Shown: positions 39,981 through 60,741 of the stretch, one piece after another | Layout of the letters: each line of letters starts with the position of its first letter | How positions within the stretch are numbered: the first letter of the stretch is position 1 | From: Bdellovibrionales bacterium CG10_big_fil_rev_8_21_14_0_10_45_34 | Lineage (GTDB): Bacteria > Bdellovibrionota > Bdellovibrionia > Bdellovibrionales > 1-14-0-10-45-34 | Assembly: GCA_002778785.1 (NCBI GenBank) | Contig: PEZS01000016.1 | Location: forward strand, 241,106 to 305,105 | Length of the DNA: 64,000 nucleotides | Direction: 5' to 3' | The notes under the pieces: model-generated | Database searches by the model: none | Told to the model about the DNA's origin: nothing | Seen by the model: only the letters and a program-made list of their open reading frames with translations | Made by a program: the position numbers and the translations under genes

Positions 39981-40056
39981 GCGGGAGTAGCTCAGTTGAT
40001 AGAGCGCTGCCTTGCCAAGGCAGAGGTCGCGGGTTTGAATCCCGTCTCCCGCTCCA
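39981..40056 (+). tRNA. tRNA-Gly(GCC) carried by the element
   Basis: A complete cloverleaf. Acceptor GCGGGAG/CTCCCGC, D-stem GCTC/GAGC, anticodon stem CTGCC/GGCAG, loop TTGCCAA with anticodon GCC at 40014-40016, T-stem GCGGG/CCCGT (one G-T wobble), discriminator T and encoded CCA. A T-rich run (40059-40071) follows. It differs from the split host tRNA in acceptor, anticodon and T stems, so it is not a duplicate of it. It has no strong promoter of its own that I can see. Confidence 0.95.
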
Positions 40057-40104: not shown

Positions 40105-40323
40105 ATGAACAGCGATCCGAAAGTTGTTCCCTTCTTCAAAGGGAAAGTAAATCCCAAATACGCAAATGTTTCTGATTCCCTGAAGTGGGCTATCCCTATG
40201 ATGGAAGCTCAAGACAGCCCTGAAGTTCAAGCTGGCCACAAAGCTTCGGAAGAGCGAGCCCGCGCAATGCGAGCCGAAAAAGAGCGGGCAAAACTCAAAG
40301 CCTCATTCAAAGTTATTTCTTAG
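40105..40323 (+). CDS. Small hypothetical protein downstream of the element tRNA
   Basis: A 72-residue, Ala/Lys/Glu-rich product with a C-terminal helix (KASEERARAMRAEKERAKLKASF). GAGGG lies upstream of the ATG. It starts 49 bp after the tRNA and overlaps the convergent integrase gene by 11 nt. The position next to the integrase is where excision-factor genes often lie, but the sequence shows no HTH and I cannot assign it. Confidence 0.4.
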   Translation: MNSDPKVVPFFKGKVNPKYANVSDSLKWAIPMMEAQDSPEVQAGHKASEERARAMRAEKERAKLKASFKVIS

Positions 40324-41611
40324 CAAAAGCCTTCAAAAACTGATTCGAGACTTGATTGATGTACTTTTCGGTCGTCCTGAATGAACTGTGCAAACAGCAC
40401 TTCTGCAGGAAGTATGGATTCCCCAAATACCAATCATGCAGATGGAGCGCACCGATGGTCGCATAGCTATGCTTCCATGCGTGAGGGTGCAGAAACTTGA
40501 AATCGCAATCTTTAGCAATCTGTCGCCACCACTTCATAACGGTGTCAGGATGGCAATCAAGCAAACGATCTTTCGGGGCAATGTTCTTTTTGAGGAAACG
40601 AGCGACATCCACCAATATCTTGGGTGACGGCTGAACCATTGGTAACTGGATTCGTTCGCCTGAAGTTGTCTTAGTTGCGTCCTCAAAAACGAGAGCACCT
40701 TTTTCCCCACGGCTCCAGCCAGAAACGATATTGTCCTTCAAATCAAAGTTCGGCACGTCGTCATCGGGGTGCAAACATTCCGCATTCAAGCCCAGTAAGT
40801 TCCCACGACGGAGGCCCGTGCAGACTCCGAAGAAAATCGCATAGGCTTTCTTTTTCATCTCCAGATTATCTTTGTAAGCCTTGTCGATGGCATCCTTGAT
40901 GTCATTCAACTCGTCCTCAGTGTAGGTCTCTTTCGTGCGGACACCTGTCACATCCTCACCACGGCGACGGGCTTGTTTCTTCTGTTCAAGGGTCATCTTG
41001 ATATCGAGAGTATAAAAGTCGTCTTGACCAATATAGCCCGAATCCAAAAGAAACCGCATATACTCATTAAACGGTGTCGTGATTGAGCTGTAGGTGTTGT
41101 GCGAATATTTCTTTCCGCTCAGGGTCTTGGCCATCATCACATGAGTGCGAGCTTTTGCTTTGAAGTTTTTAAAATCCTTCGGGTGATTGCATCCGTTGCC
41201 TAAGAAGAACGGCATCCAAAATCGCTTCATCCAACCTTTGTAGGCAAACGGAATACTGTGCGTACTTTTGAAGGCAACGAACTCATCCAGGTTGTCCTCA
41301 AAGTTGAACTCTTTGCTCTTGAGATCGAGCTTCTCTTGAATCTTGTATTTCGGCAGAGCGTATTTATCTTTAAGCTCTTCATACAAACGGTGCTTCAACG
41401 CTTGAAAATGATTATCCTGATTCGCTGCGGCCTTTTTCAATTTGTGAGCACGAAGATACTCATTGATCTGTTTTAAGGTGGGTTGAACTTTGGAGCTGAT
41501 TTGCACTTGCGCACCATTCGGAGGACGAATGGCGACACGCAGGGAATCAAACTTCTTCCCAGCTCGCCACATTGGATAAATACCCTGGATGGTACTTCTG
41601 CCTTTTGCCAT
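40313..41611 (-). CDS. Tyrosine recombinase (integrase) of the element
   Basis: This 432-residue integrase has an N-terminal arm-binding and core-binding region and a C-terminal catalytic domain. Arg I lies in TGLRRGNLLGL. The box II motif reads HPHAWKHSYAT, where the usual second Arg of H-x-x-R is Lys. The nucleophile is the Tyr in RTTEKYINQV. It starts MAKGRSTIQG with GGAG upstream. It is transcribed toward the left end, next to attL and the tRNA-Gly. It should recombine the palindromic attP with the tRNA-Gly anticodon stem-loop. Confidence 0.9.
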   Translation of the reverse strand: MAKGRSTIQGIYPMWRAGKKFDSLRVAIRPPNGAQVQISSKVQPTLKQINEYLRAHKLKKAAANQDNHFQALKHRLYEELKDKYALPKYKIQEKLDLKSKEFNFEDNLDEFVAFKSTHSIPFAYKGWMKRFWMPFFLGNGCNHPKDFKNFKAKARTHVMMAKTLSGKKYSHNTYSSITTPFNEYMRFLLDSGYIGQDDFYTLDIKMTLEQKKQARRRGEDVTGVRTKETYTEDELNDIKDAIDKAYKDNLEMKKKAYAIFFGVCTGLRRGNLLGLNAECLHPDDDVPNFDLKDNIVSGWSRGEKGALVFEDATKTTSGERIQLPMVQPSPKILVDVARFLKKNIAPKDRLLDCHPDTVMKWWRQIAKDCDFKFLHPHAWKHSYATIGALHLHDWYLGNPYFLQKCCLHSSFRTTEKYINQVSNQFLKAFAKK

Positions 41612-41762: not shown

Positions 41763-41806
41763 GTATAAAAGTTGACTTTATTTTCAAAAAATGTCAGCAT
41801 TTATAC
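41763..41806. promoter_or_regulatory. Operator-like inverted repeat of the abiE operon
   Basis: GTATAAAAGTTGAC (41763-41776) and GTCAGCATTTATAC (41793-41806) form a 14-bp inverted repeat with 12 matches, ending 4 bp before the abiEi ATG. AbiEi antitoxins are known to autoregulate through inverted repeats in their promoters. Confidence 0.65.
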
Positions 41807-41810
41807 CATT

Positions 41811-42377
41811 ATGACGAAGCTACCAAAAGCCCTTCAGAAAGGGCCCTTTACCTATAAACAAGCCTTGGCCTCTGGACTCAACTTGAGATCGGTCCGGCAA
41901 CTTGTCGCTGAGGAGCAATGCTACACCGTTGCCAAAGGCGTCTATATGCCAACGAATGTAGAGTACAATGAAGAAAACCAATTCAGGGCGGCCACTCTCA
42001 TCGTGGGACAGCCTTCGGCCATTTGTTTAGTCTCTGCACTTTCGGTGTACGGACTTACCGATACCATTCCACGCAAAACATGGATCACAGTACCCGCAAC
42101 GAAGCGGACTCAAGTTTCAAGCCTTAAAGTTTTGCGACAGAGCGATCCTCAATGGGACATCGGGATTGAAAAGAAAAATGGCTACACGATAACTTCCGTT
42201 GAGCGCACCCTTGTTGAATCTTTCTGCTATAAAAATATGATTGGCAGCACCGTCCCTATCGAAGCCCTGCGAGAAGCCGTCAGAAAAAAACTAACGACTC
42301 CTTCTAAAATACTCGATATGGCAAAAAAAATGAAAGTCGTTCACCGAATACTTCCGTACTTAGAGGCAATGGCATGA
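41811..42377 (+). CDS. abiEi: AbiEi antitoxin (type IV toxin-antitoxin, abortive infection)
   Basis: A 188-residue protein with an N-terminal winged helix (FTYKQALASGLNLRSVRQLV, then VAKGVYMP) and a C-terminal antitoxin domain (SAICLVSALSVYGLTDTIPRKTWITVPA, SVERTLVESF), the order found in AbiEi. The ATG at 41811 matches the family N-terminus; a TTG further upstream would lie inside the operator. It overlaps the toxin gene by 4 nt. It represses its own promoter and neutralises AbiEii; both roles are family knowledge. Confidence 0.88.
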   Translation: MTKLPKALQKGPFTYKQALASGLNLRSVRQLVAEEQCYTVAKGVYMPTNVEYNEENQFRAATLIVGQPSAICLVSALSVYGLTDTIPRKTWITVPATKRTQVSSLKVLRQSDPQWDIGIEKKNGYTITSVERTLVESFCYKNMIGSTVPIEALREAVRKKLTTPSKILDMAKKMKVVHRILPYLEAMA

Positions 42378-43228
42378 GCAAGATGATTTCTCCTGAAAAA
42401 ATTCAACTGGAACTCAACAAACTCGCCAAAGCTTCAAAAACTCTTTCGGTGAATGACCTTCGCATGATTTTGGCCTTGGAGCGTGTGATCGCCCGCGTAG
42501 AGAATCACAAAAAACTCTCAAAGCATTTTGTTTTCAAGGGTGGGTTTGTTTTGCTTAAAACTGTCAATTCAGATCGCTTCACTCGTGATGTGGATGCGCT
42601 TGCCATCGGCCTTTCTCGCAAACAAGTCCCTGACCTTGTGGAAGATGCTTTGTCTCAAGATCTGCAGGATGGGCTTTGGTTCGGCGACGTCAAGACCAGC
42701 GATCTTGTAAATCAAGGGCCGTATGGCGGCTACACTTTCAACGCAGCTTTCACTATCGGCAAAGCCCCATCGGTTAAAGATCCAAAAATCAAAAAATTTT
42801 CCAGAATCCGTATTGACGTGGGATTTGGTGACGCGCTGGATTCGGTGCCAGAAAAACAATCCATGCCGTCTATTCTTGCGAGCGAAGAACCTGTCACTTG
42901 GTCGATCTATCCATTTGAGTTTATCTTTGCCGAAAAAATGGAAGCCTTGTTTTCTCGTGGCAGCAATAACTCCCGATCAAAAGACATCTACGATATGCAG
43001 CTCATCTTTGGAAAAATCAAAGACAAGAAATTGCTTCGCAAGGCCATTCAAAAAACTTTTGAAAACCGCAAGACTCCAATCCCTGAATCGTTCTGGGCAA
43101 CCGCCCAAGAGTTTGAATTGGCCGTTTTAAAAAAGGCCTGGGGTTCGGTTGAGCTATCAACTGGCGAAGAACCGTTCGATGATGTCTGGGAAAAGTTTTT
43201 GACGGTCTTGCGTTCTTTGGAGTCTTAA
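42374..43228 (+). CDS. abiEii: AbiEii nucleotidyltransferase toxin
   Basis: This 284-residue protein has the AbiEii motifs: HFVFKGGFVLLK (GG pair, about 53-64), RFTRDVDALAIG (metal-binding Asp pair), IRIDVGFGD, and IYPFEFIFAEKMEALFSRG with RSKDIYDMQLI. It blocks growth when unchecked, giving abortive infection. Coupled to abiEi by an ATGA overlap. It is only distantly like the chromosomal AbiEii-like protein at 7.2-8.0 kb. Confidence 0.9.
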   Translation: MSKMISPEKIQLELNKLAKASKTLSVNDLRMILALERVIARVENHKKLSKHFVFKGGFVLLKTVNSDRFTRDVDALAIGLSRKQVPDLVEDALSQDLQDGLWFGDVKTSDLVNQGPYGGYTFNAAFTIGKAPSVKDPKIKKFSRIRIDVGFGDALDSVPEKQSMPSILASEEPVTWSIYPFEFIFAEKMEALFSRGSNNSRSKDIYDMQLIFGKIKDKKLLRKAIQKTFENRKTPIPESFWATAQEFELAVLKKAWGSVELSTGEEPFDDVWEKFLTVLRSLES

Positions 43229-43529
43229 AAGGATTATTTCGGTCCTCGGCGCCGATTTTTTTTAATTCTCAAACTCACCGAGGTAAAATACGAATGCTGA
43301 TTTTTAATAATCCCATTTTCAATTTTTAATAAAACACCCGTTAAAGCGAGTCTCACAGAGCCGACCATGCGCACTTAAACGGCCTTGGCTCGCCCGTGGT
43401 CGCATTTTTGGAGGCCAATCCCTGCTTGGCACCACCTCAGGCAATGCCGTGGCTTTAAAACAAAAACATTAAATTATTAAAAATCACTATGCGCATCGGA
43501 AACTTCGCAACAGCGGTCACTTTTAAACA
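43229..43529. other. Intergenic region with three TTTTTAATAA motifs
   Basis: This region between convergent abiEii and the zeta-like gene holds TTTTTAATAA at 43301-43310 and 43323-43332 and its complement at 43474-43483. The same motif recurs at 53.9-55.3 kb. No gene or clear terminator found. Confidence 0.5.
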
Positions 43530-46406
43530 TTACTTTCCTAAGAACAACTCACTACAACTCTTGCCAGCCGCGCCCGATGGCTTAGAAGACTTCGCAGGAA
43601 CTGAGGTAACTGGAATAACTGGCGCCTCAGCTTTTAGTCTTGCGGCAACGCCATAATTTGAATCACGGTAAATTTCTGCGCTATGAACGCCTGTCAAACC
43701 ATTGCCGTCTCGGATCTGTTTTGCGATTGCATCCATACGAATTTGCAAAACCTCTTGGATACGTTGTGAGTTAACTTCTTGGCGACCTACCCGCATCACC
43801 TGGGCCAATACCTGAACCCCAAGTTTAAAAAAGTCAGCTCTGCTGACTGTCTTTCGCAAGTTATCCAACATTGCGGGACCGTAATACAGTAACAGAGCCG
43901 GATCGCCTTTGAAGCCTGTCGCAGAAAACTCGCGTTCTAAAGTCATTCGATCATTCGCTGGGAGTTTTTGTAGGGCTTGAAACAACTCTTCACCGTCAGC
44001 CGCTGTTTGACAACGAAACATCAGGCCAACGCGAGTCATCCAAAGAGCGCGGCTGCTATCAGGCATTATGCTTGAACTTCTTTGACGAAGGAACTCTTGA
44101 TAAGTTGCCTTTATTGATTCTTCTGAATTTGTCATGCCCTCGATGCCGGTCATCGCCGTTCTAATTCCAGCATAGGTCGGTTCTGTCAATACCAGCGAGC
44201 CATTGATGTTGTCTTGCCCACGGGCGGCAGCGATTTTTAGAATTGAAGTCGCCAAGTAAAAGTCCCGCGCGTCTTTTGAGCGATTGGCATGTTCTTTCAA
44301 AAGTCTGGCTGGAGCTTCGCCCTGAGCAAGTTGTGCAAGGTTAAATTCTTTTTCAAAACTGTTAACGACCATCTGTCTTTGAAATTCATCGAGACGCTGA
44401 TAGGTCGGCGAGATGAATGGATAAAGTCTTAGCAGTTCAGACATGACACGTTGATGGTTTGTCTCCTGAATGCCCGATGATTTTTTAAGGTACGAAATTG
44501 CGGCTTCCGATTTTCCGATATTATTAAAAATTAAAAACGAAAACAATGCGTCTCGCATAGACGGATTGAATGCCACTCGCCGAACAAGTTTTGAAATTTC
44601 TAAGAACGACTCTCGGCTCAGCCGAATATTTTCGGGCTGTCCGTGAACGAAGCCATCGTAATCGCCCGCGATAAGCCGTTTGAACAACAACAAGGCGGCG
44701 ATGGTGCGATCAAACTCAGGATACGGCTTATTGAACAACGACGTGGCTAAGGATTGCTCCAAAGCCTGGGGCACTGATCCAACTTGCTTCGGATAGGTCG
44801 CTTCATTTTTAGAACCGAGCCAGCCAAGCTCAGGAGTCAGAGTCACTCGTTCGGTGGTGGATACCAACTTGGCGGCGATAGCTTCAGGTGTGGCAACCAC
44901 GCCTTCTGTTAACAGAATCAATTCTGGATAGGATTCCAAGACTACGCGAATCAACTCTTGATCCGTGACGCTTTCAACACGTCGATAGAGGTCTCTTAAC
45001 TTACGAGTACGGCTTTCGTATTTTCTTTGGATCGCAGGAATCTCTAATCCTCTCACCAAGCGCAGCGGTCCGCGTTTGTAACCCATGTTTTCAAATTTCT
45101 TTGTTGGGTCCGAATCAAAACGAGGATCTTTCGTAAGTTGCAAAGCAACCGCTTCTGTTTCTGGATCAAGTCCAACATCTCTAACTAAAACAACAGGAAC
45201 TTGCTTTGTTAGCGCGGATTGAACAATGCCTGCGTCTCTTGCTTCTCCTCGCAAAGCAACGACCTCGATTTTCTGTTTGAGTTCGTTATCCGAAAAAATT
45301 GAATCAACGGCACCATCGGCACCAATGACGACTGAATCCTTGCGATTTGGATTTTTGGCAAGTTCTGCGGAAATCCAGTCCCGTGCGCGACCGACGCCTT
45401 CTTGATGGGTCAAAATAAACAGCGTATCGGAACTATATGTTGAAGTAATTTGATCGATGTATGACTTCAAGAGAGAAAAGTCCTCATATCCAAGGCGTCC
45501 ATATCCAGCGAGAACGACGGTTCGTCGGTGACTTTTTGCCAAAGAAAATAGCTCAGCAGAAGATGACAAGGTAATATCAGTTGGCTTCGGGACAGCCAAA
45601 CCCAGTTGTCCTGTAAGATCGAAGTGTGTCGGCACTTTTTTGCCGCGAATCTGAACTGATTTAACGGCCGGAGAAATTCCATTCTCGATTTCCAAAGTTA
45701 AGTCTGCATAAGCAGATAAGTATTCAACTGACTCTCGAACGCCAGAAGACATTTTAATAACAAGATCTTTCGGCACAAACCGTCCAGTTACTTTGCCCCT
45801 TGCTTCCACTCGCTGAAGCAAAATTTCTTCAGGAGCATTGACCGAAATAATTGAAATCGCATACTCGGGGTGCGATTGTCGGATGCGACGAAATTCAGAA
45901 ACCCACCAGTCTTTTCCTAAAAGTGTTCCATCGACAATGATGTTCTTTTTTGAACGTAGAGCCTGCTCAAAGAGTTGCTCCTGAATATGCCCTGATTCAC
46001 GGTGAACAAGTGACGCTGCATCTTCGGGCTTCGTTTGCTTAAGGTCTTTGTATTCGGGAATATCCTCTTTGATTGCATCTGGATCGATCCAGATGAACCT
46101 TGATACATCCAACAGGTCGAGCTTTTCTAAGGCCGACGCAACAAATGATTTTCCTGCTCCTGCGGGGCCGGCGGTAAAAATCAGGCGTGGCCTTTCATCT
46201 GACGAGCCAGCTTGCATTCTAACGTCGACAATTTTTTTATGGAGCGCTGCTCTTAATGGAAGGTAAGTAAATTGCCATTGACCCGTTTGGGTTGCGAATT
46301 GAGATGCAGTATCTTGCGCATCAGCAGCAAACGAAAAAGCAGAAGACAGCACGATAAGTGCGAAGAGAAAGTGTCTTGTGTGCTTTTTTAAAACTGCCAA
46401 AGCCAT
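43530..46406 (-). CDS. Exported zeta-toxin-domain multidomain protein
   Basis: This is a 958-residue protein. A signal peptide spans about 1-28 (HFLFALIVLSSAFSFAADA). A zeta/PezT-type kinase domain follows at about 70-240: Walker A GPAGAGKS at 80-87, IDPDAIKEDIPEY, and KNIIVDGTLLGKD. A Rossmann-like segment at about 285-430 (RTVVLAGYGRLGY) comes next. A large helical region (about 470-900) is shared with the upstream gene product. It ends in SCSELFLGK. Zeta toxins phosphorylate UDP-N-acetylglucosamine-type precursors; export suggests action in periplasm or in another cell. It lies 11 bp after the paralogue gene. Confidence 0.75.
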   Translation of the reverse strand: MALAVLKKHTRHFLFALIVLSSAFSFAADAQDTASQFATQTGQWQFTYLPLRAALHKKIVDVRMQAGSSDERPRLIFTAGPAGAGKSFVASALEKLDLLDVSRFIWIDPDAIKEDIPEYKDLKQTKPEDAASLVHRESGHIQEQLFEQALRSKKNIIVDGTLLGKDWWVSEFRRIRQSHPEYAISIISVNAPEEILLQRVEARGKVTGRFVPKDLVIKMSSGVRESVEYLSAYADLTLEIENGISPAVKSVQIRGKKVPTHFDLTGQLGLAVPKPTDITLSSSAELFSLAKSHRRTVVLAGYGRLGYEDFSLLKSYIDQITSTYSSDTLFILTHQEGVGRARDWISAELAKNPNRKDSVVIGADGAVDSIFSDNELKQKIEVVALRGEARDAGIVQSALTKQVPVVLVRDVGLDPETEAVALQLTKDPRFDSDPTKKFENMGYKRGPLRLVRGLEIPAIQRKYESRTRKLRDLYRRVESVTDQELIRVVLESYPELILLTEGVVATPEAIAAKLVSTTERVTLTPELGWLGSKNEATYPKQVGSVPQALEQSLATSLFNKPYPEFDRTIAALLLFKRLIAGDYDGFVHGQPENIRLSRESFLEISKLVRRVAFNPSMRDALFSFLIFNNIGKSEAAISYLKKSSGIQETNHQRVMSELLRLYPFISPTYQRLDEFQRQMVVNSFEKEFNLAQLAQGEAPARLLKEHANRSKDARDFYLATSILKIAAARGQDNINGSLVLTEPTYAGIRTAMTGIEGMTNSEESIKATYQEFLRQRSSSIMPDSSRALWMTRVGLMFRCQTAADGEELFQALQKLPANDRMTLEREFSATGFKGDPALLLYYGPAMLDNLRKTVSRADFFKLGVQVLAQVMRVGRQEVNSQRIQEVLQIRMDAIAKQIRDGNGLTGVHSAEIYRDSNYGVAARLKAEAPVIPVTSVPAKSSKPSGAAGKSCSELFLGK

Positions 46407-46417
46407 AAACTAACTTC

Positions 46418-48742
46418 CTATCTTGAAATCGCGGCTAAATGATCCGCTACGTTCATAAAGAAGATTCCCGCCATGCTTTGATCAACATGCACAAAAGGAT
46501 TCCACGGATTTCTTCCATCAACCACGACGCGAGAAGGGATCGGAAGAACTTGAAGTCCTAATTGACCGGTTAAAGCACGTTGCCATGTTAGCGGTGTTTT
46601 ACCGAAGCGCGCGTCGTTGGCGCCGGTCATATCCCATTTTGTATAAATCTGGAGAACTTGGGTTGATTGAGTTTGGTTAAGTTGAAAATATCTGGCTCCG
46701 GCAGAACCTAAAATAGCGCTGGCGTTATTTGGAGAATCAATTCCGGCAGCAACAATCGTCGAAATTTTATTTTGAACTGGCACTTCGCCGATAGCCGACA
46801 ACACTCTTAAATCTTGGTCAGGAGTCGATTTTGCGCTGTTGAGTTGAGACGATGCTTTGATGGGATAAAGAGCGTCGCCGCCTGTGTCCACTGTGATAAT
46901 CGTATCCACTCCTCGGAGCTGTTGGTTCAAGGAATTAAGTTGTCCAACCAAAGTGCCGTTCTGGCGATCCATGACCAAAAACATTGGCACTTCGTCACTC
47001 GGAAGATTTTCGAGAAACCTTCCGCTTCCAGTTGTTTGCGGCAAAATTCTATAAGTGCCATTAACAACTTCTCCGCCATGCTGTGATACGGTTCTATCTT
47101 CGCCATCACGTCCATTGAGGCCTTGAGAAGCCGTCTTTTCGGTTCTCACTGAAGCGACGTAGACAAGTTCTTTACCGGCATTTTTCAAAAGTAAGCCAAG
47201 TTGCGCTGCCTGAATTCCATCTGAACCGCCACCAATTCCGATAACAGCAACACGATGGCCAGGAATCTCTGACAAGCTATTCAGGGGTGTGAATTTAGCT
47301 GAGTCAATAACTTGGCGATCAACTAATTTTGCTTCGCCATCTTTCGCAACAAGATCAATTTCAAATTTCTTAGTAACTAACTGCTCTGGAGTTTTTCCGG
47401 CCTCAGCGATTTTTGAAATCAAAAGCGTGAAGACGCCATCGCCGTTGCGCCCTTTAATTGTGACCCTCGCTTCTTGATAAAGTTGCGCAAGAGTCGTAAG
47501 GCCCAATTGAATGCCTGCATGCTCACTTAAAACTGTCGGATTTGCCTTTGAATAAGCGAGAATATTTGAAAGCAAAGCTGGCGAATAATAAAGAAGAGTT
47601 CCATATCCGTCGCCGGTGCCGTTGATGTTCATTTCTTTAACTAAGATAGCTTTTGTATTTTGAGGAAGGCCATCAAATGCCGCTGTAATTCTTGATGCCG
47701 TATTGGTGTCTGATACGCGCATCATAGTTAACAAGCGGGTCAATGCGCGTTCTCGTGGAACTTCAACTCGCAATCCAAAAGGACGTCCTTTTTCAGATAA
47801 GAAATAGTTGTAAACATCGACTTCAGATCGGCCCTGAGCCAGTCCTTCGATAGCTTTAATGCCGAGCTTGAATCCGTCATAAGTCGGATTCGACATGACG
47901 ACCGAGCCTTCCCAGTTAACATGGCCCGCAGCTCCGCCAATGTCTGCGACGGCGTGGAGTAAATAGAAATCCAGACTTTCTTTATCTAAGCCCTTTAAGC
48001 CAGAAAGACTTGCGGCAAGGTTTTCACCCTGAATGAACTGGCCGATGTTAAATTTCGGTCTCAAGCCTCGAATCATTTTCTGCTGAGTTGCAGGAGACAA
48101 TCGAGCAAAACTTGGCGAAAGGTCCGGATGATTTTCTAAGGCAATAAGTAAGAGGTTATCGTGATCGACGTCTTTAATGCCCGCGCGTTTTTCAATTTCG
48201 CCGACGATTGATTTGATTTTCCCAAGATCGTTGATCACCATGTACGTAATCATGGCGTCAATATCTTCCGGAGTTTTGAGGATTGAGCGAGTGTAAGATC
48301 GGAGTTCATTAAAATTCTCACGGGTCATTTTAACTGCCGCGTTCTGCGGCTTTGTGAAAGCGTCGTAGTTGCCCTCAAGAATCCATTTGATAAGCAAGAT
48401 TCCAGTCGCAGTTCGATCAAACTCAATATGTTTTTCGCCGAAGATTTTCTCGGAAAGAGACTGAACTTTGTCCGAATTTGCTTTGCCTTCTGGCGTGGCG
48501 TTTACTTTTCCGGTCAGCCACGCGAGTTCAGGGTATTGAACCAACGACATTCGTACGACTTCAATGGGATCGCTTGAGGCAAAAAACTTTCTGACAAACG
48601 ACTTCGGATTTGTAGGCATAGCCTTTTCGCTTCGGGCGCCAGCATTCAGGAAAAGATCCTGGCAGGATATAGCCGCGTGGGCGTGTGGGAGGCTAAGTTG
48701 CAATGACAAAAAAAGGATAGCAACTGTTGAACTTTTAGACAT
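46418..48742 (-). CDS. Exported protein with DUF1152-like domain, paralogue of the zeta-like protein
   Basis: This is a 774-residue protein. Signal peptide MSKSSTVAILFLSLQL..HAHA (about 1-23), then SCQDLFLNAG. The helical region at about 50-420 aligns with the downstream protein (YPELAWLTG, FDRTATGILLIKWILEGNYDAF, GSVVMSNPTYDGFKLGIKAIEG). A C-terminal DUF1152-like Rossmann domain at about 500-760 has GIGGGSDGIQAAQLGLLLKN and VDTGGDALYP. The start at 48742 has GGGAG upstream and begins the signal peptide. It is the first gene of a two-gene unit. Confidence 0.7.
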   Translation of the reverse strand: MSKSSTVAILFLSLQLSLPHAHAAISCQDLFLNAGARSEKAMPTNPKSFVRKFFASSDPIEVVRMSLVQYPELAWLTGKVNATPEGKANSDKVQSLSEKIFGEKHIEFDRTATGILLIKWILEGNYDAFTKPQNAAVKMTRENFNELRSYTRSILKTPEDIDAMITYMVINDLGKIKSIVGEIEKRAGIKDVDHDNLLLIALENHPDLSPSFARLSPATQQKMIRGLRPKFNIGQFIQGENLAASLSGLKGLDKESLDFYLLHAVADIGGAAGHVNWEGSVVMSNPTYDGFKLGIKAIEGLAQGRSEVDVYNYFLSEKGRPFGLRVEVPRERALTRLLTMMRVSDTNTASRITAAFDGLPQNTKAILVKEMNINGTGDGYGTLLYYSPALLSNILAYSKANPTVLSEHAGIQLGLTTLAQLYQEARVTIKGRNGDGVFTLLISKIAEAGKTPEQLVTKKFEIDLVAKDGEAKLVDRQVIDSAKFTPLNSLSEIPGHRVAVIGIGGGSDGIQAAQLGLLLKNAGKELVYVASVRTEKTASQGLNGRDGEDRTVSQHGGEVVNGTYRILPQTTGSGRFLENLPSDEVPMFLVMDRQNGTLVGQLNSLNQQLRGVDTIITVDTGGDALYPIKASSQLNSAKSTPDQDLRVLSAIGEVPVQNKISTIVAAGIDSPNNASAILGSAGARYFQLNQTQSTQVLQIYTKWDMTGANDARFGKTPLTWQRALTGQLGLQVLPIPSRVVVDGRNPWNPFVHVDQSMAGIFFMNVADHLAAISR

Positions 48743-49152
48743 ATGAAACTCCCATACTTGCTCCTGATGCCTGGGATTACAACTCACCGCTCCTTGGTCG
48801 CATTTATCCATGAGTCAATACGGCGTCTACCACACTTGCCCAGAATTGAACAGCGACCGTCATCGCTTGCCTTGCGGCCTTACGCAAAGCTCACTGTTCA
48901 TTTAAAAACCTCGCCTCGGCTTGCTCCAAGCCCCCATAAGGGGCAACTGGAGCAGAAGACGAGTTTCAGCAAGTTGATCCATTTATTTGCTCGGCCTTAA
49001 GCCGACAATCCTCAGTTATTTGCCTTTTTTTATTTAGGTCTTCTTTCAGAAGACTGTACCCCGGGGATACCCCATTCAGCCCAGAATGGCTGATCTCTGG
49101 GGACTTTAGGAAAAATCCATTTATAGACCGTGACCATTAAAAGGGAGGGTCT
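48743..49152. other. Intergenic region between divergent exported-protein and HTH genes
   Basis: It holds inverted repeats GCCCC-CATAA-GGGGC (about 48929-48945) and TCGGC-CTTAA-GCCGA (about 48990-49004), a dyad around 49068-49102, and two copies of ATCCATTTAT (48977-48986, 49115-49124). The second copy is 29 bp before the HTH gene start. This is probably a divergent promoter region; an origin cannot be excluded. Confidence 0.5.
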
Positions 49153-50031
49153 ATGAATGAACAAATTAAGAAACCACGGGAACTACTGCTTTACTACACA
49201 CCAGTCTATAACGTCGTTATTCAAAATTGGCTGTTTAGCCTTGTTGAAAGAACGTTGATCACATTGTTTGCCAGCTATCAAAAGAATGGCTGCGAGTTGA
49301 GCCGCGAAGTTCTTAAAAGACATTGTGAGTGCGGGCCATACCACCTTGAACGCGCGGTTAAGCGACTTGAGTTCATGGGGATAATTGCAGTCCAGCGTGG
49401 CGGTAAGCGAAGCTACAATCCGCCACGACGTGATACCAACCGTTATTTTTTCCAAAACGATCCATATAGCTGGCGAGTGACCAAGGAACTTCAAGACCGC
49501 ATTGCCGAAGAAACTGCGCAGTTGGGTAAAGCGCCACGAACTTTCACACATCAGGGCTACGCCGATAAAAAGGCTTTGGATTACGCCTTTGGACACTCCG
49601 TTCCGGCCTACGCGTGCGGTAAAAAAGGACGGCGGAAACTAAATCAGGCACGACAAAGCGTGGAGAATACCGCCGAAGTTCAAGGGCCGACGACCGACGA
49701 AACAAAGTGGACCAGCAAATCCCAAAAAATTACCGCTGATGACGTACGGTTCAGTTATGTCGCCAGAGAATACTACCGCTACATTGACGATATGAAAACC
49801 GCCGGTGAGTTTTCCGATCACGGCTTTTCAAGCCATCAACTAACCTACTTTGAACGGCTCTATGCCGTTTTCATGGAACGCAGAAAACGGCCCCACAGTG
49901 AAGACGACGTTAAACTTTTTAATAAAATCGCGGACTGGCTCAATGAGAACAAATCAAACTTGGAAATATCAAACGAGCTTGGGCGTTTGGATCAGAAAAT
50001 TAAAAAAGATGGCAGCGAAACGGAGAAATAG
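49153..50031 (+). CDS. Winged-helix DNA-binding protein of the element
   Basis: This 292-residue protein has an N-terminal winged helix-turn-helix (about 15-85: ERTLITLFASYQKNGCELSREVLKRHCECGPYHLERAVKRLEFMGIIAV). The C-terminal half is Lys/Arg-rich with a helical segment ADWLNENKSNLEISNELGRL. The layout resembles plasmid replication-control or phage replication proteins, but no replication motif is seen. GGGAGG precedes the ATG. A 106-bp-like spacing does not apply: the next gene starts 2 bp later, so they are coupled. Confidence 0.55.
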   Translation: MNEQIKKPRELLLYYTPVYNVVIQNWLFSLVERTLITLFASYQKNGCELSREVLKRHCECGPYHLERAVKRLEFMGIIAVQRGGKRSYNPPRRDTNRYFFQNDPYSWRVTKELQDRIAEETAQLGKAPRTFTHQGYADKKALDYAFGHSVPAYACGKKGRRKLNQARQSVENTAEVQGPTTDETKWTSKSQKITADDVRFSYVAREYYRYIDDMKTAGEFSDHGFSSHQLTYFERLYAVFMERRKRPHSEDDVKLFNKIADWLNENKSNLEISNELGRLDQKIKKDGSETEK

Positions 50032-50594: not shown

Positions 50595-50798
50595 CTAAGG
50601 CCACCAAAGGTCTACGAGGCCAATAAGCCACCACAGAAGCCCTGAAACAGCCAGCATTGCCAGTGCCGGCAGTCCACCCCCAAGCCACAGCCACCCAAGG
50701 CCACCGAATAGGGTTCCAAGCCAATAGATGGCCAACCATTCAATAACGATGGTTTTAACTTTTCGCGGTCGGCCCGCCGTTGGTCGAGTCTGCTTCAT
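50595..50798 (-). CDS. Small two-span membrane protein with a GRPRK tail
   Basis: A 67-residue protein with a basic N-terminus (TRPTAGRPRKVK) and two Trp/Gly/Leu-rich hydrophobic segments (about 18-37, 41-64). It is divergent from the winged-helix gene at 50855, and the two share an inverted repeat. There is no strong Shine-Dalgarno. Function unknown. Confidence 0.4.
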   Translation of the reverse strand: MKQTRPTAGRPRKVKTIVIEWLAIYWLGTLFGGLGWLWLGGGLPALAMLAVSGLLWWLIGLVDLWWP

Positions 50799-50843
50799 GT
50801 AGAGTAAATGGATTGCTCGCGCGACTGATCCATTTACTTCTAC
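50799..50843. promoter_or_regulatory. Inverted repeat between divergent element genes
   Basis: GTAGAGTAAATGGAT (50799-50813) and ATCCATTTACTTCTAC (50828-50843) are complementary except for one inserted base. They fill the space between the divergent 50798 and 50855 genes, as a shared operator would. Confidence 0.5.
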
Positions 50844-50854
50844 GGAGGTCAGTT

Positions 50855-51259
50855 ATGGAACTTGAACACATGAACATTATTTTGCTGAACAAAAAATTTC
50901 TGTCCGAGGTCGGACTTAGGCTTTTAATTTATGCCCAACTTGCCCGTGAGGTCTCGGGCATAGGTAACGAAAAACGAATCGTATTTCTAAGCCGTCGCCG
51001 CATCTGCAAAAGGCTTTCAATATCAATGGGCGCCTGCCGTTCGGCCATCCGGCAACTCATCGGCTACGGCTTTATCATTATGTGCGACAGTCGTGGGAAT
51101 AAGATCGAAGATTTCTCTTCTAATTATATTTTCATCAATCCAAAAGAAAAGCTCAATCACGATAAGATCAAATCTATTTTAGATTTGATCGAGAAGTCCA
51201 AACAGACAAGCGCGGGATCGGTGGATGATCGCGCGGTTGGACTGTTTGACGATATTTAG
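50855..51259 (+). CDS. Winged-helix protein of the element
   Basis: A 134-residue protein with a winged helix around residues 10-80 (LRLLIYAQLAREVSG ... RRRICKRLSISMGACRSAIRQLIGYGFIIMC). The ATG at 50855 has GGAGG 6 nt upstream. It is similar in architecture to the N-terminus of the 49153 product. It may be a regulator acting at the inverted repeat just upstream. Confidence 0.55.
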   Translation: MELEHMNIILLNKKFLSEVGLRLLIYAQLAREVSGIGNEKRIVFLSRRRICKRLSISMGACRSAIRQLIGYGFIIMCDSRGNKIEDFSSNYIFINPKEKLNHDKIKSILDLIEKSKQTSAGSVDDRAVGLFDDI

Positions 51260-53271: not shown

Positions 53272-53586
53272 TCAGGATTTGTTTTTTATTTTTTTGACCT
53301 TAATTTCAAAAGACCCAGAGAATAGTTCCGCCATCAATTCACCGATGAACTCACTTTTCTGCGAAGGCTCCTCCTGTCCGTAGAGCAAATAGAAAAGTGA
53401 TACATGCAGAGACCGCGCGACCGCCATCACCGTTGAAATATCCCGCGGCTGACGATTGCTCCTCATGTGTGAGATCGTTGACAGCGGGACACCCGAAGAG
53501 AATGACAGTTCTTTGAGCGACAGCCCTTGCTCATTCATCAGCCGAATCAAAGTCGGCCCCATTTTTACCTCCAGCTTTTTATCCAT
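53272..53586 (-). CDS. XRE-family HTH regulator
   Basis: A 104-residue Cro/C1-type regulator. The HTH at about 12-65 reads RLMNEQGLSLKELSFSSGVP then STISHMRSNRQPRDISTVMAVARSL. The start at 53586 has GGAG 10 nt upstream; an in-frame ATG at 53706 lacks one and gives an unlikely N-terminus. It is the first gene of a four-gene unit and probably autoregulates it. Confidence 0.7.
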   Translation of the reverse strand: MDKKLEVKMGPTLIRLMNEQGLSLKELSFSSGVPLSTISHMRSNRQPRDISTVMAVARSLHVSLFYLLYGQEEPSQKSEFIGELMAELFSGSFEIKVKKIKNKS

Positions 53587-54245
53587 CGTGGTCACTCCGT
53601 TCTTATCGTGAGCGAGTGAGCCGAAGTTCATGTCCTTTTCCCCAGAGAAAAACTTTTCTCTCTTGCGGCTACGAGGCAATGAACTTTCAAACTCACAAAC
53701 GCCCATGAATAGATCCTGTCGCGCTTGGTTTTACTTGTACGCGCAAAAATAAAAAATCATTGCAAATCACCATAAGCGCTTGAGATCGCTGGCCGTGGAG
53801 CGCACCGTTTTGGGAACGGCGCAGTTCTTGATCGTTGGTTGCGCAAATCGCTGACGGGACGACTTCTCTAAAGAACAATTTTTTTCGTTAAAAATGCTGG
53901 TCGCAGAAATTATTAAAAATGCCGATGGGTGGCCGATTTTTAATAATTTGGACGATTGTTTTAAACGGCGTTAAATAGGCACAGGAAATCTCGGCATTGG
54001 CTGACCCACTTATGTTCGCCGAAAACTCCGCTACGGGCTTTCTGGAGCCGTTTAAAGCCATGCGGTTAGTTGAGGTCTGGGGTAGCTTGGACTTCGGTTT
54101 TAATAATTCGCATTTAATAATCGGCGTTGTAATAGCACAGGGTTATAAAAAACGCGGGAACGTCACAGGTCACTACGGCCAAAAAAATAAAAGCACCCAT
54201 TGTTCAGGTGCTTCATTAAGTTTGTTCCATTTCAAGACATTTCAT
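53587..54245. other. 659-bp noncoding region rich in TTTTAATAA motifs
   Basis: It contains TTATTAAAAA (53910-53919), TTTTTAATAA (53937-53946), TTTTAATAAT (54098-54107) and TTTAATAAT (54113-54121), all next to CG-rich steps. The terminator of the downstream gene is at 54191-54213. The region could be a regulatory hub or an origin-like region. No convincing gene found. Confidence 0.5.
54191..54213 (-). terminator. Rho-independent terminator of the 54246-54566 gene
   Basis: On the minus strand, AAGCACC-TGAACAATG-GGTGCTT followed by TTATTTTTTT. It is nearly identical to the terminator at 54741-54765. Confidence 0.8.
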
Positions 54246-55325: not shown

Positions 55326-56144
55326 TTAGCGGCCCATCAGTGCTTTTTTTTTAAACGCGACCAAACCACCTGGCAGCTCAATTCGTTTGCCATCACAGCT
55401 CAAGAGCTTATCCATCAGGTCTTGTCGTTCATTGGTGACTGTGTAGCCGTATTTTTCGCAGCTAAAATAGCGGCAAACGATATGCTTAATGCGGTCTTCG
55501 CCAAAATCTCTTACGAAATCGTCAAGAGTAAAGCCAGACATCAGGTCTGTGACGTAATCCAGCTGTTCGTCGTAGCTCATTTTTAGAAATACCTCATCGC
55601 CAACGATGGTTTGTTCATAGTCGTCGCGTGCCAGCTCATAGAGTTTTTTAAAAATGTCATCCACGTCGTCATTACGAAGTCCCAACTTTATGTCATCCCA
55701 TGAAATATCAGTAACTTCTTGAGCGCGGCAGTCTTCTTCCAATTCGTCAGCAAGATGTAGAGCAAGAGCTGATAAACCAAAGGCGCCTATGACCTTGTAG
55801 TAGTGGTCGGTCAAAATTAAGTCCGCCATGACATCACCATTACCGTCGTCATTGTCAGCGTCGTCTGCCGTGAAGTTCTCAATGAACATGCTGACTATTT
55901 CTTGTCCTTGATTTTCTGGGAGGTTCATTAGGTGGGCGATATTCAAACAAGTATTGTAGTGAGCATCGGTCCACCCATGGTCTTTCGCTATTTTTTGGAT
56001 TTTAGTCGCATGAACGACCAGGCTATCAACTTCACCTACGTTTCCGTCTTGAATTGCTTTGTCTATCGCTTTCCGCTCATCATGCTCACCCAGATATGAC
56101 GTCAAAAGAGCTTCTTCAAGCGGCTTGGTTTTTTTCTTGCTCAT
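55326..56144 (-). CDS. Acidic hypothetical protein coupled to the methyltransferase
   Basis: A 272-residue protein, rich in Asp and Glu (ENFTADDADNDDGNGDVMADLI, YLGEHDERKAID, ADELEEDCRAQEV) and mostly helical. The ATG at 56144 starts 1 nt after the methyltransferase stop, so the two are co-translated. No domain recognised. Strong acidity and linkage to a methyltransferase recall DNA-mimic or antirestriction accessory proteins, but that is speculation. Confidence 0.6.
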   Translation of the reverse strand: MSKKKTKPLEEALLTSYLGEHDERKAIDKAIQDGNVGEVDSLVVHATKIQKIAKDHGWTDAHYNTCLNIAHLMNLPENQGQEIVSMFIENFTADDADNDDGNGDVMADLILTDHYYKVIGAFGLSALALHLADELEEDCRAQEVTDISWDDIKLGLRNDDVDDIFKKLYELARDDYEQTIVGDEVFLKMSYDEQLDYVTDLMSGFTLDDFVRDFGEDRIKHIVCRYFSCEKYGYTVTNERQDLMDKLLSCDGKRIELPGGLVAFKKKALMGR

Positions 56145-56145
56145 A

Positions 56146-58260
56146 TCAAGCCGCCTTTCTTTTTTGGTTTTGTGTTTTTGATTTTCTGTAATTTTCCGTT
56201 TCCACAACCATGCCCAGTTGAGAAAGATAATCTAAACGCTCACCCAATAAATCACCGCCATATACAAAGATGACTGAGCCGAACATGGCTTGCTTTTTGT
56301 TGATGGTTTCATTGTGAATAAGGCGCTGTTTTAGAAAAACAATATGAGTGGCACCTTCGCAGAATCCACGGAACCATTTACTTTCTGGCGTCCATGCGGG
56401 AACCAAAGAGAAAATAGGTTGGCCGTTTTGTTTGTATTCCGCCGCCATTTTTTCCGCCCACGCTAATAATCCATTTTTATCGTTGTAAGGTGGATTGACA
56501 AAGACGCCATGGCCGCTACTGACTTCCCATGACTTTTTGAGAGCATTGTCTTTTTTGGTCAGTATTCTTTTAAACTTGTGAACCAAGTTTGCTTCCGAAC
56601 CGGTAGCCGCGTCCAGCTCAAGCGGATACACAAAGTTTAAAAAATCCACCAACCACTTAGGCGTCATCTGATGGTTTTTCTTGTCTTTGGTTTTCCAGCC
56701 TTCAATTGTTTCAAACAATTCTTTATCAGTAGAAGGCTCTACTTTAGTAAAAATAGGCGGCGGTGTAACTGAACCGCCTTTCACCAACGCCAATTTCTTT
56801 TTTGGAGTGCGGTTTGATTTTTCTACTAAGTCTTGCGTCCCGCCAGAAAAACGCGCACCTTTCATTTGCGGCTTTTGGTCTTGAGCGGCAGTTTCATTTG
56901 CCGCAACTTTTGGAGCCTTGGTCTTTTTGTTGGCTTTCAGCTTAGCTGTAACTTGTGGAGCTTTGCTCTTTTGGGTGGCTACGGCTTTCTTATTTTTTTG
57001 CGGTGGCGCTGGGTCAATTCTCTTTCCAGAGTTTTTAGTAACCCGCACGCCCTTATCCCACAATGTCAGTGAAACAAGGATTTCTTTGAATAGCTCACGG
57101 ATTACCGGAACTGGGACGGAGTTCCCCAGCTGTTTGTAACTTTCAGATGCAGACGCCGTGAGTTTGTAGTTGTCTGGAAAGCCTTGAAGCCTTGCGCATT
57201 CCCGTGGGGTGAGTTTGCGTAAGTGAACTTTTTTGGTATTTCCATCTTTATCCGTCAAATCATACACGCCACGGTTTTTAGGTGCGCTCTTTTCAAGGGG
57301 CACCGCCACAAGATTTTTTAGCAGTGATGATGTTGACCGCAAGATGGTGTGCGTGGGTTTAGCAGGGTCAATGATTTCAAAGCCAAAGTTATCGCCATTT
57401 TTGTCATAGCGGTCTTTTGCTTGAACCAGCGTATCTATTTGCTCTTGGCTAAGGAAATAGTTTTTGTGAACGGAGTTTTCTAAAATCTCACCACTTGCCG
57501 CCGCAAGAACGGTTGGCTTTGGAAAACTGAACGGAACATTCTCACGGAAAGCCACAATGAAAAGTCTTTCACGGGCTTGCGGCACACCATAGTGAGATGC
57601 TTTTATAACTTGGTGGTGAGTGTAGTAGCCACGGGAATGTAGTTCTTTAAGAACGGTTTTTAATCCACGGCCACCATTGGTGGTAGCCATGCCTTTTACA
57701 TTCTCAATGAAAAGAACACGGTGTTCCGGGTGGGCGTCCGCAATTCTAAAAACGTCATAGATAAGTTGCCCACGGTTATCTTTGAGACCTTTGCGTTTGC
57801 CTTGAGTAGAAAAAGATTGGCACGGTGTTGAAGCCGTCAACACGTCAAAGTTAGGCACCGTGTCCGCTTTAAGTTGAGTAATATCCCCAAATGGGCAATC
57901 ACCAAAGTTGTCCTGATAAGTGGCAATGCAGTGTTTATCAATTTCACTTGCGGCTACCACCTTAAATCCCGCTTGTTCAGCACCTAAACGGGTGCCGCCG
58001 ATTCCGGCGAACGCTTCAAAAATTGTGAGCGGTTGAACGTTGCCGCCATTTGGCTTTTTGTGTTTCACCCACCGCAATGCCTTGAACCAGCTTGCCGCTT
58101 GAGTGCGGGTGTTTTGGATTTGTTTAAAAATCCAATTCCGCACCTGATTAAAAAGTGCGGTCAGTATTAACACCCATTGCGCGGTATTAATTTTTGTTGG
58201 TGCTACCTGAGTAGCGGTTTTCTTTTTAGAACGGGACTTGGTTACAGTTTTTGATTTCAT
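56146..58260 (-). CDS. Fused DNA methyltransferase: cytosine-C5 plus adenine-N6 domains
   Basis: This is a 704-residue protein. An N-terminal basic extension (1-75) precedes a complete C5 methyltransferase (about 78-400): motif I FEAFAGIGGTRLG, motif IV TPCQSFSTQGKRKG with catalytic Cys, VI FIENVKG, VIII QARERLFIV, IX RKLTPRECARLQGFP, X QLGNSVPVPV. A Lys/Ala/Pro-rich linker (about 410-490) joins a phage Dam-like N6-adenine domain (about 520-690; MTPKWLVDFL, LDAATGSEANL, FVNPPYND). AGGAGG lies 6 nt upstream. Both active sites look intact. No restriction nuclease is recognisable beside it. Confidence 0.85.
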   Translation of the reverse strand: MKSKTVTKSRSKKKTATQVAPTKINTAQWVLILTALFNQVRNWIFKQIQNTRTQAASWFKALRWVKHKKPNGGNVQPLTIFEAFAGIGGTRLGAEQAGFKVVAASEIDKHCIATYQDNFGDCPFGDITQLKADTVPNFDVLTASTPCQSFSTQGKRKGLKDNRGQLIYDVFRIADAHPEHRVLFIENVKGMATTNGGRGLKTVLKELHSRGYYTHHQVIKASHYGVPQARERLFIVAFRENVPFSFPKPTVLAAASGEILENSVHKNYFLSQEQIDTLVQAKDRYDKNGDNFGFEIIDPAKPTHTILRSTSSLLKNLVAVPLEKSAPKNRGVYDLTDKDGNTKKVHLRKLTPRECARLQGFPDNYKLTASASESYKQLGNSVPVPVIRELFKEILVSLTLWDKGVRVTKNSGKRIDPAPPQKNKKAVATQKSKAPQVTAKLKANKKTKAPKVAANETAAQDQKPQMKGARFSGGTQDLVEKSNRTPKKKLALVKGGSVTPPPIFTKVEPSTDKELFETIEGWKTKDKKNHQMTPKWLVDFLNFVYPLELDAATGSEANLVHKFKRILTKKDNALKKSWEVSSGHGVFVNPPYNDKNGLLAWAEKMAAEYKQNGQPIFSLVPAWTPESKWFRGFCEGATHIVFLKQRLIHNETINKKQAMFGSVIFVYGGDLLGERLDYLSQLGMVVETENYRKSKTQNQKRKAA

Positions 58261-60412: not shown

Positions 60413-60544
60413 TCGTTTTCCTATCCTGCCCCCATGGCCACCCGCTGGACCTAATGCGGTCCGCCAAGGCCTGAACCCAAAACCAAAGGCCGCACCCAGC
60501 CTTTTCGCCTGCCCCTTAATTTTCAGTATTTAGAGCAAAAAGTG

Positions 60545-60567
60545 GATAGACCGTCTCCTTGCCAAGG
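60545..60567. other. attR: right element arm plus core
   Basis: Element arm GATAGACCGTCT (60545-60556) followed by core CCTTGCCAAGG (60557-60567). The arm is the exact complement of the left arm at 39840-39851. Upstream bases also resemble the host tRNA D-arm/anticodon region (24 of 27 over 60541-60567). Confidence 0.85.
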
Positions 60568-60603
60568 CGAAGGCCGCCGGTTTGAGCCCGGTCACCCGCT
60601 CCA
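60557..60603 (+). pseudogene. 3' half of the host tRNA-Gly(GCC)
   Basis: It comprises loop TTGCCAA (60559-60565), stem GGCGA, T-arm GCCGG/CCGGT, acceptor CACCCGC, discriminator T and CCA (60601-60603). Joined to 39800-39839 it forms a 76-nt tRNA with perfect acceptor (GCGGGTG/CACCCGC) and anticodon stems (TCGCC/GGCGA). It has no promoter here. Confidence 0.9.
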
Positions 60604-60741
60604 ATTTACCAATAATTGAAATATGTCGCGTGGATGGGGGCATCTAATAATCCGCTAACCCATCGGAACTCTTTTGTTTTATGAATTGACACGCCAGAAA
60701 AAAGTACCTGCCTAGAAGGCTCTGTGGCAGGTTGTGTAGCT

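Follow-up and report, generated by a model that had tools for sequence, protein, structure and literature searches.

A predicted orphan C5-cytosine and N6-adenine double methyltransferase in a tRNA-integrated element of Bdellovibrionota, with a probable role in self-protection

The window, a stretch of 64,000 nucleotides, is part of contig C16 in the 3.06-Mb genome of a predatory-type Bdellovibrionota bacterium. Its relevant features, together with the relatives of one of its genes, are listed in Table 1. An integrase lies beside tRNA-Gly and a 67-nt copy of the tRNA 3' part lies at 60541-60607; the methyltransferase gene is thus located inside an integrated element of approximately 20.5 kb which carries its own integrase and is bounded by the tRNA gene and its partial copy.

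Table 1. Features of the integrated element and members of the p599 family in related loci
Feature	Position	Strand	Remark
tRNA-Gly(GCC)	39981..40056	+	integration site, one att end
Tyrosine recombinase (integrase)	40313..41611	-	beside tRNA-Gly
AbiEi/AbiEii type IV toxin-antitoxin pair	41772..43228	+	cargo
Two DUF6829 proteins, one with Zeta-toxin domain	43530..48811	-	cargo
rep292, weakly O-like replication initiation protein	49153..50031	+	common to related elements
HTH protein, weak RP-C and helicase-loader matches	50780..51259	+	82% identical in sister element
CI-like HTH repressor	53272..53706	-	86% identical in sister element
Acidic ORF, 272 aa	ATG 56144 to 55326	-	not conserved with methyltransferase
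Predicted bifunctional DNA methyltransferase, 704 aa	56146..58260	-	profiles, alignments, structure model
p599, family of about 600 aa	58456..60255	-	upstream of methyltransferase
Partial copy of tRNA-Gly 3' part, 67 nt, 81%	60541..60607	+	other att end
p636 (p599 family, 636 aa), G045	L009 5882-7792		upstream of fusion methyltransferase
p594 (p599 family, 594 aa), G002	L156 2560-4344		beside stand-alone C5 methyltransferase
p676 (p599 family, 676 aa), G018	L154 4522-6552		one 298-aa gene, then PF01555 methyltransferase
Fifth member of p599 family, 446 aa	L155 2403-3742		cut by contig end

As it carries an integrase and its att repeats lie at a tRNA gene, the element is an integrative mobile element. 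ORF scans revealed no virion, relaxase or secretion genes in it and, as no relaxase or type IV secretion family occurs among its ORFs, it was not classed as an integrative conjugative element. As to a possible PICI-like phage satellite, an integrase and an HTH repressor are present, replication matches are weak (E 0.001-0.01) and no virion gene was found. In addition to the tabulated genes, a putative lipoprotein is encoded. The tandem DUF6829 proteins, one of which is fused to a Zeta-toxin/kinase domain, are possible defence cargo outside PADLOC.

Several repeats were observed in the element. A non-coding region of about 187 bp with inverted repeats (43301-43486) is 76% conserved in a sister element (G045:C23:126102-126288), where it directly precedes the integrase; in the window the AbiE genes intervene. 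Its motif AAATTATTAAAAATCACTATG, a possible operator, is found again in front of the CI-like repressor, at 53754 and 53907. Repeated upstream regions with a spacing of 551-600 nt (54182-54231/54733-54782 and 54678-54711/55278-55311) are found ahead of p118 and p133, which suggests that a small-gene slot was duplicated in tandem; p118 is a paralog of p110 (50034). A 58-nt inverted repeat (79%; 58274-58331/60374-60431) flanks p599 and lies upstream of the methyltransferase and p599 starts.

The methyltransferase ORF begins with an ATG at 58260, in front of which is a good ribosome-binding site, TTAGGAGGCAAATATG. Its product consists of an N-terminal helix (residues 26-64), a C5 domain (79-394), a linker (about 400-520) and a Dam domain (525-665). 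The C5 domain matches PF00145 with 276 bits against a cut-off of 22, and motifs I, IV, VI, VIII, IX and X are intact (FAGIGG 84-89, PCQ 146-148, ENV 186-188, QxRER 228-232, RECARLQG 353-360 and GNSV 379-382), with Cys147 within PCQ as the catalytic cysteine. On profile score and motifs this is a C5-cytosine DNA methyltransferase, and the alignment showed the motifs to be kept in the sole ortholog. M.HhaI aligned with the domain from end to end (187 bits) and also provided the best PDB matches of the AlphaFold model (mean pLDDT 73.5), in which two confident domains are separated by a disordered stretch (pLDDT below 50 at residues 411-516). The 39-residue helix ahead of the C5 domain is also present in the ortholog.

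The C-terminal domain was assigned to the phage Dam family (PF05869), based on a score of 56.7 bits (cut-off 28.1), NPPY at residues 589-592, and TP, D550, NPPY and R646, which in the alignment are invariant among divergent phage Dam proteins. It scored 49.6 bits with the NCBIfam equivalog phage_N6A_met (TIGR01712), below the cut-off of 97.05, and has a Trp (VPAWT) where the ortholog (VPARG) and many phage Dam proteins differ. Thus both domains and the motifs claimed by the first-pass annotation were borne out, as was its Lys/Pro/Ala linker, which over about residues 400-505 is basic (pI 10.7, 20% Lys). Its statement that no nuclease is recognisable also holds: scans against Pfam, NCBIfam and PADLOC recognised none among the ORFs of the window's element, and since the neighbouring genes match no nuclease there either, the enzyme was not classed as part of a type II restriction-modification system. 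The fusion is the only C5 methyltransferase found in the window's genome, and the same is true of its counterpart in the sister's genome; D12 matches elsewhere amount to a weak one in the former and none in the latter. As judged from sequence, the 704-aa protein is a real orphan (nuclease-free) double methyltransferase and is probably active.

One of the domains, most likely the low-scoring Dam domain, could instead be inactive, or be a non-specific or single-strand m6A enzyme such as M.EcoGII or M.EcoGIX; plasmids and prophages do encode m6A enzymes that act broadly or on single strands (PMC7736820), and the Dam domain reaches just 57 bits, compared with 184 in a phage fusion. This appears improbable, since none of the invariant positions, NPPY included, has been lost. 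Retention of these positions, together with 68% identity to the domain of the sister element, indicates that the Dam domain is under selection.

Fusions of C5 and m6A methyltransferases are already known as a kind of protein, and the view that the present one is unique was rejected, given phage P1 Dmt and phage C5+PF05869 fusions. P1 Dmt (YP_006537, 754 aa) resembles the window protein in that the C5 domain (PF00145) comes first and the m6A domain second in one polypeptide, and in being an orphan in a mobile element; it is annotated as a bifunctional methyltransferase which methylates GATC and perhaps C5-cytosine. However, its m6A domain is of the D12 type (PF02086), to which the window's PF05869 domain does not belong, its C5 domain is of another lineage (a 100/100 clade apart from the window's), and it is without the long basic linker. 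Closer in domain content are Enterobacter phage CobraSix gp41 (637 aa), Providencia phage PSTRCR_117lys QQK88382 (574 aa) and viral contigs L062/L063 (641 aa), in each of which a single ORF has the two Pfam families arranged as in the window protein; the Pfam check was made on L062, with CobraSix and PSTRCR_117lys aligning to L062/L063 over 93-99%. Unlike that of the window, their C5 domain is P1-Dmt-like, and the Lys/Ala/Pro linker is missing. In the tree, the L062 and CobraSix Dam domains lie apart from that of the window, but the long PSTRCR branch does not. In Edwardsiella phage eiAU, the C5 and PF05869 genes are adjacent, rather than one gene as in the window. Viral contigs searched directly with the window protein or with a two-row alignment yielded no relative. 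A viral C5 methyltransferase frame with three stop codons (L157:1001-1960) was also observed, and represents a decayed gene or another genetic code.

The window's C5 domain is sister to a stand-alone methyltransferase of another Bdellovibrionota genome (G002, L156:1266-2441), which has no Dam domain and is preceded by a p599-family gene; it is the probable pre-fusion form. In the C5 tree, the domains of the window and the sister (G045) group with this enzyme (99/100), and a separate clade (100/100) is made up of the phage fusions. A single clade for all fusions gave AU p-values of 0.038 (20 rows) and 0.068 (24 rows), so that one origin for all C5+Dam fusions is disfavoured rather than firmly excluded. 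Based on the tree and these tests, the window's fusion was probably assembled independently. Among relatives of solved structure, M.HhaI is closest to the C5 domain in both sequence and fold; it recognises GCGC and, in contrast to the window enzyme, stands alone within a restriction-modification system. With only about 32% identity, a shared GCGC target is not implied.

A pattern search of 84,980 species genomes returned one other copy of the fusion, 63% identical, in a Bdellovibrionota metagenome-assembled genome (L009). Among 368 genomes of the phylum, PF05869 occurs in a long frame only in these two copies (707 and 750 aa), the remaining frames being 155-343 aa. The search for the fusion in other islands therefore gave one positive: the sister copy lies inside an element of about 20.7 kb, which extends from tRNA-Met (C23:128222) to a 12-nt core copy at 107513 and carries a type III restriction-modification system and an SMC-like ATPase as cargo. 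Besides the methyltransferase, repressor and HTH protein, the two elements have in common a 201-aa protein (72%) and the replication protein (53%). This replication protein also occurs in further elements, near tmRNA in G058 and on contig C12 of the genome to which the window belongs. In the G018 element, an HTH repressor of the same type is accompanied by an integrase and a member of the p599 family. The 16-kb contig C12 (G000, L053) encodes a repressor and a type III restriction-modification system in addition to its related replication protein, and GGCC is strongly avoided on it (4/29).

The first-pass annotation had coupled the methyltransferase with the acidic protein encoded behind it. 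As it had stated, the 272-residue ORF does begin 1 nt past the methyltransferase stop. Its product has a pI of 4.6, a net charge of -25 and a structure model (pLDDT 39) too poor to be of use. Functional pairing was rejected: the gene-content comparison found no acidic gene in the sister element, and it is therefore not a conserved partner; neither was any homolog found among 140 genomes of the order. Most likely this ORF is an accessory gene or has no relation to the methyltransferase.

The recurrent neighbour of the methyltransferase is instead the upstream gene, p599. Members of this family lie upstream of a DNA methyltransferase in four Bdellovibrionota loci with three methyltransferase types. 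Its members are rare and highly divergent (about 20% identity); homology of p599 is at noise level in single-sequence comparison and visible only with the family profile. In leave-one-out profiles tested against 2000 shuffles, the five members scored 17-125 bits and every shuffle at most 12.5; the weakest was p599 itself (17.1 against 6.0 bits). On one reading of this arrangement, the p599 family would supply the effector of a restriction or defence system, and the host genome would be guarded by the methyltransferase. The association of p599, p636, p594 and p676 with three methyltransferase types is in keeping with such a system, as is the presence of other defence genes (AbiE, type III restriction-modification) in these elements. 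Nevertheless, searches of Pfam, NCBIfam and PADLOC gave no match to the family, and hence no nuclease, helicase or ATPase domain; no restriction endonuclease of matching type was found, and the divergence and rarity of the family also count against this reading, which is quite unlikely.

Mobile elements counter restriction by site loss and by solitary methyltransferases (PMC10359461). If the enzyme shields its element, the element should show selection by restriction which is relaxed at protected sites. The site analysis was post hoc, having been planned once tetramer counts were seen, and hexamer expectations were derived from an order-2 Markov model, which is noisy in 20 kb. Hexamer palindromes numbered 161 against 323 expected (0.50) in the window element and 93 against 303 (0.31) in the sister. 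The corresponding ratios of chromosomal windows were 0.85-1.03 in the window's genome (n=20) and 0.60-1.01 in the sister's (n=16). CTAG was absent from both elements (0/29 expected at 40057-60600 in the window, 0/27 in the sister), compared with 31-61 per 20-kb window in the window's own chromosome. Non-palindromic tetramers were barely affected in the elements.

TGATCA was the most spared hexamer across both elements, with 21 seen and 19.0 expected, while AGATCT, GGATCC and CGATCG together were seen 4 times against 27.9 expected (p=1e-5 for the split). It was spared in the cargo and core halves of each element, with no site common by descent. BglII and PvuI are insensitive to Dam methylation. 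BamHI is likewise not blocked by it, whereas BclI is (PMC5063382). Retention of TGATCA with depletion of the other GATC-core hexamers is thus the split expected from Dam methylation, and by pointing to GATC it argues against a non-specific Dam domain. In the elements without PF05869, which number only three, some on incomplete contigs, the pooled counts of 9/18.6 for TGATCA and 15/36.6 for the others gave no such split (p=0.42); taken singly, however, the G018 element does have it (p=0.03; TGATCA 6/6.2). GATC tetramers were avoided in no element, with or without a PF05869 Dam.

Hexamers with a GCGC core, the M.HhaI site, were also spared (38 seen, 37.8 expected; p=3e-4 against overall avoidance). 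The same was found in two elements without a C5 domain (contig C12 15/9.1, G018 8/10.5), for which reason GCGC was not accepted as the certain C5 target and is treated as a lead. Together with the TGATCA sparing in G018, this means that such sparing also occurs where the fusion is absent.

The first-pass annotation had offered either self-protection during transfer or regulatory modification. In the latter, sites in the element would be methylated to time replication, excision or packaging, as the P1 pac site needs Dam methylation. Packaging in Dam- hosts requires P1 Dmt (PMC12707154), the closest analogue in function, and the element does have a CI-like repressor and an O-like initiator. However, a P1-pac-like GATC cluster was found in neither element, the maximum in 200 bp being 5 (p=0.44) in the window and 4 (p=1.0) in the sister. 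Regulation also predicts nothing about which palindromes are spared, and a cis-regulatory role should fix specificity, yet the methyltransferase type varies across related elements (C5+Dam, C5 alone, PF01555). Regulatory modification is consequently regarded as unlikely.

Self-protection of a transferring element is the best-supported and likeliest role, because the methyltransferase lies in an integrated element and restriction avoidance is strong in both elements. The orphan bifunctional enzyme would probably mark the DNA of its element against type II restriction in the recipient. The N-terminal domain is predicted to make 5-methylcytosine, possibly at GCGC on the weak pattern above, and the C-terminal domain N6-methyladenine, probably at GATC. 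Methylation may take place in the donor or on establishment; type II enzymes of the recipient would then be unable to cut those sites which have not been lost by mutation.

The results indicate that C5 and N6-adenine methyltransferases have been joined more than once in mobile DNA, so a single gene covering two classes of restriction site is probably favoured. On these sequences the element appears to pair site purging with self-methylation, and the sites which it keeps would predict the specificity of its enzyme: m6A at GATC and perhaps m5C at GCGC. The findings point to a mobile-element family in predatory-type bacteria and to the p599 family, which recurs beside methyltransferases. Tentatively, these may be an undescribed family of satellite-like Bdellovibrionota integrative elements of about 20 kb with an exchangeable "methylation slot" (a new-family protein of about 600 aa plus a methyltransferase), one branch of which could have built, independently of phages, a single enzyme covering two restriction-target classes, leaving its footprint in the element sequence as protectable sites kept and unprotected ones purged.
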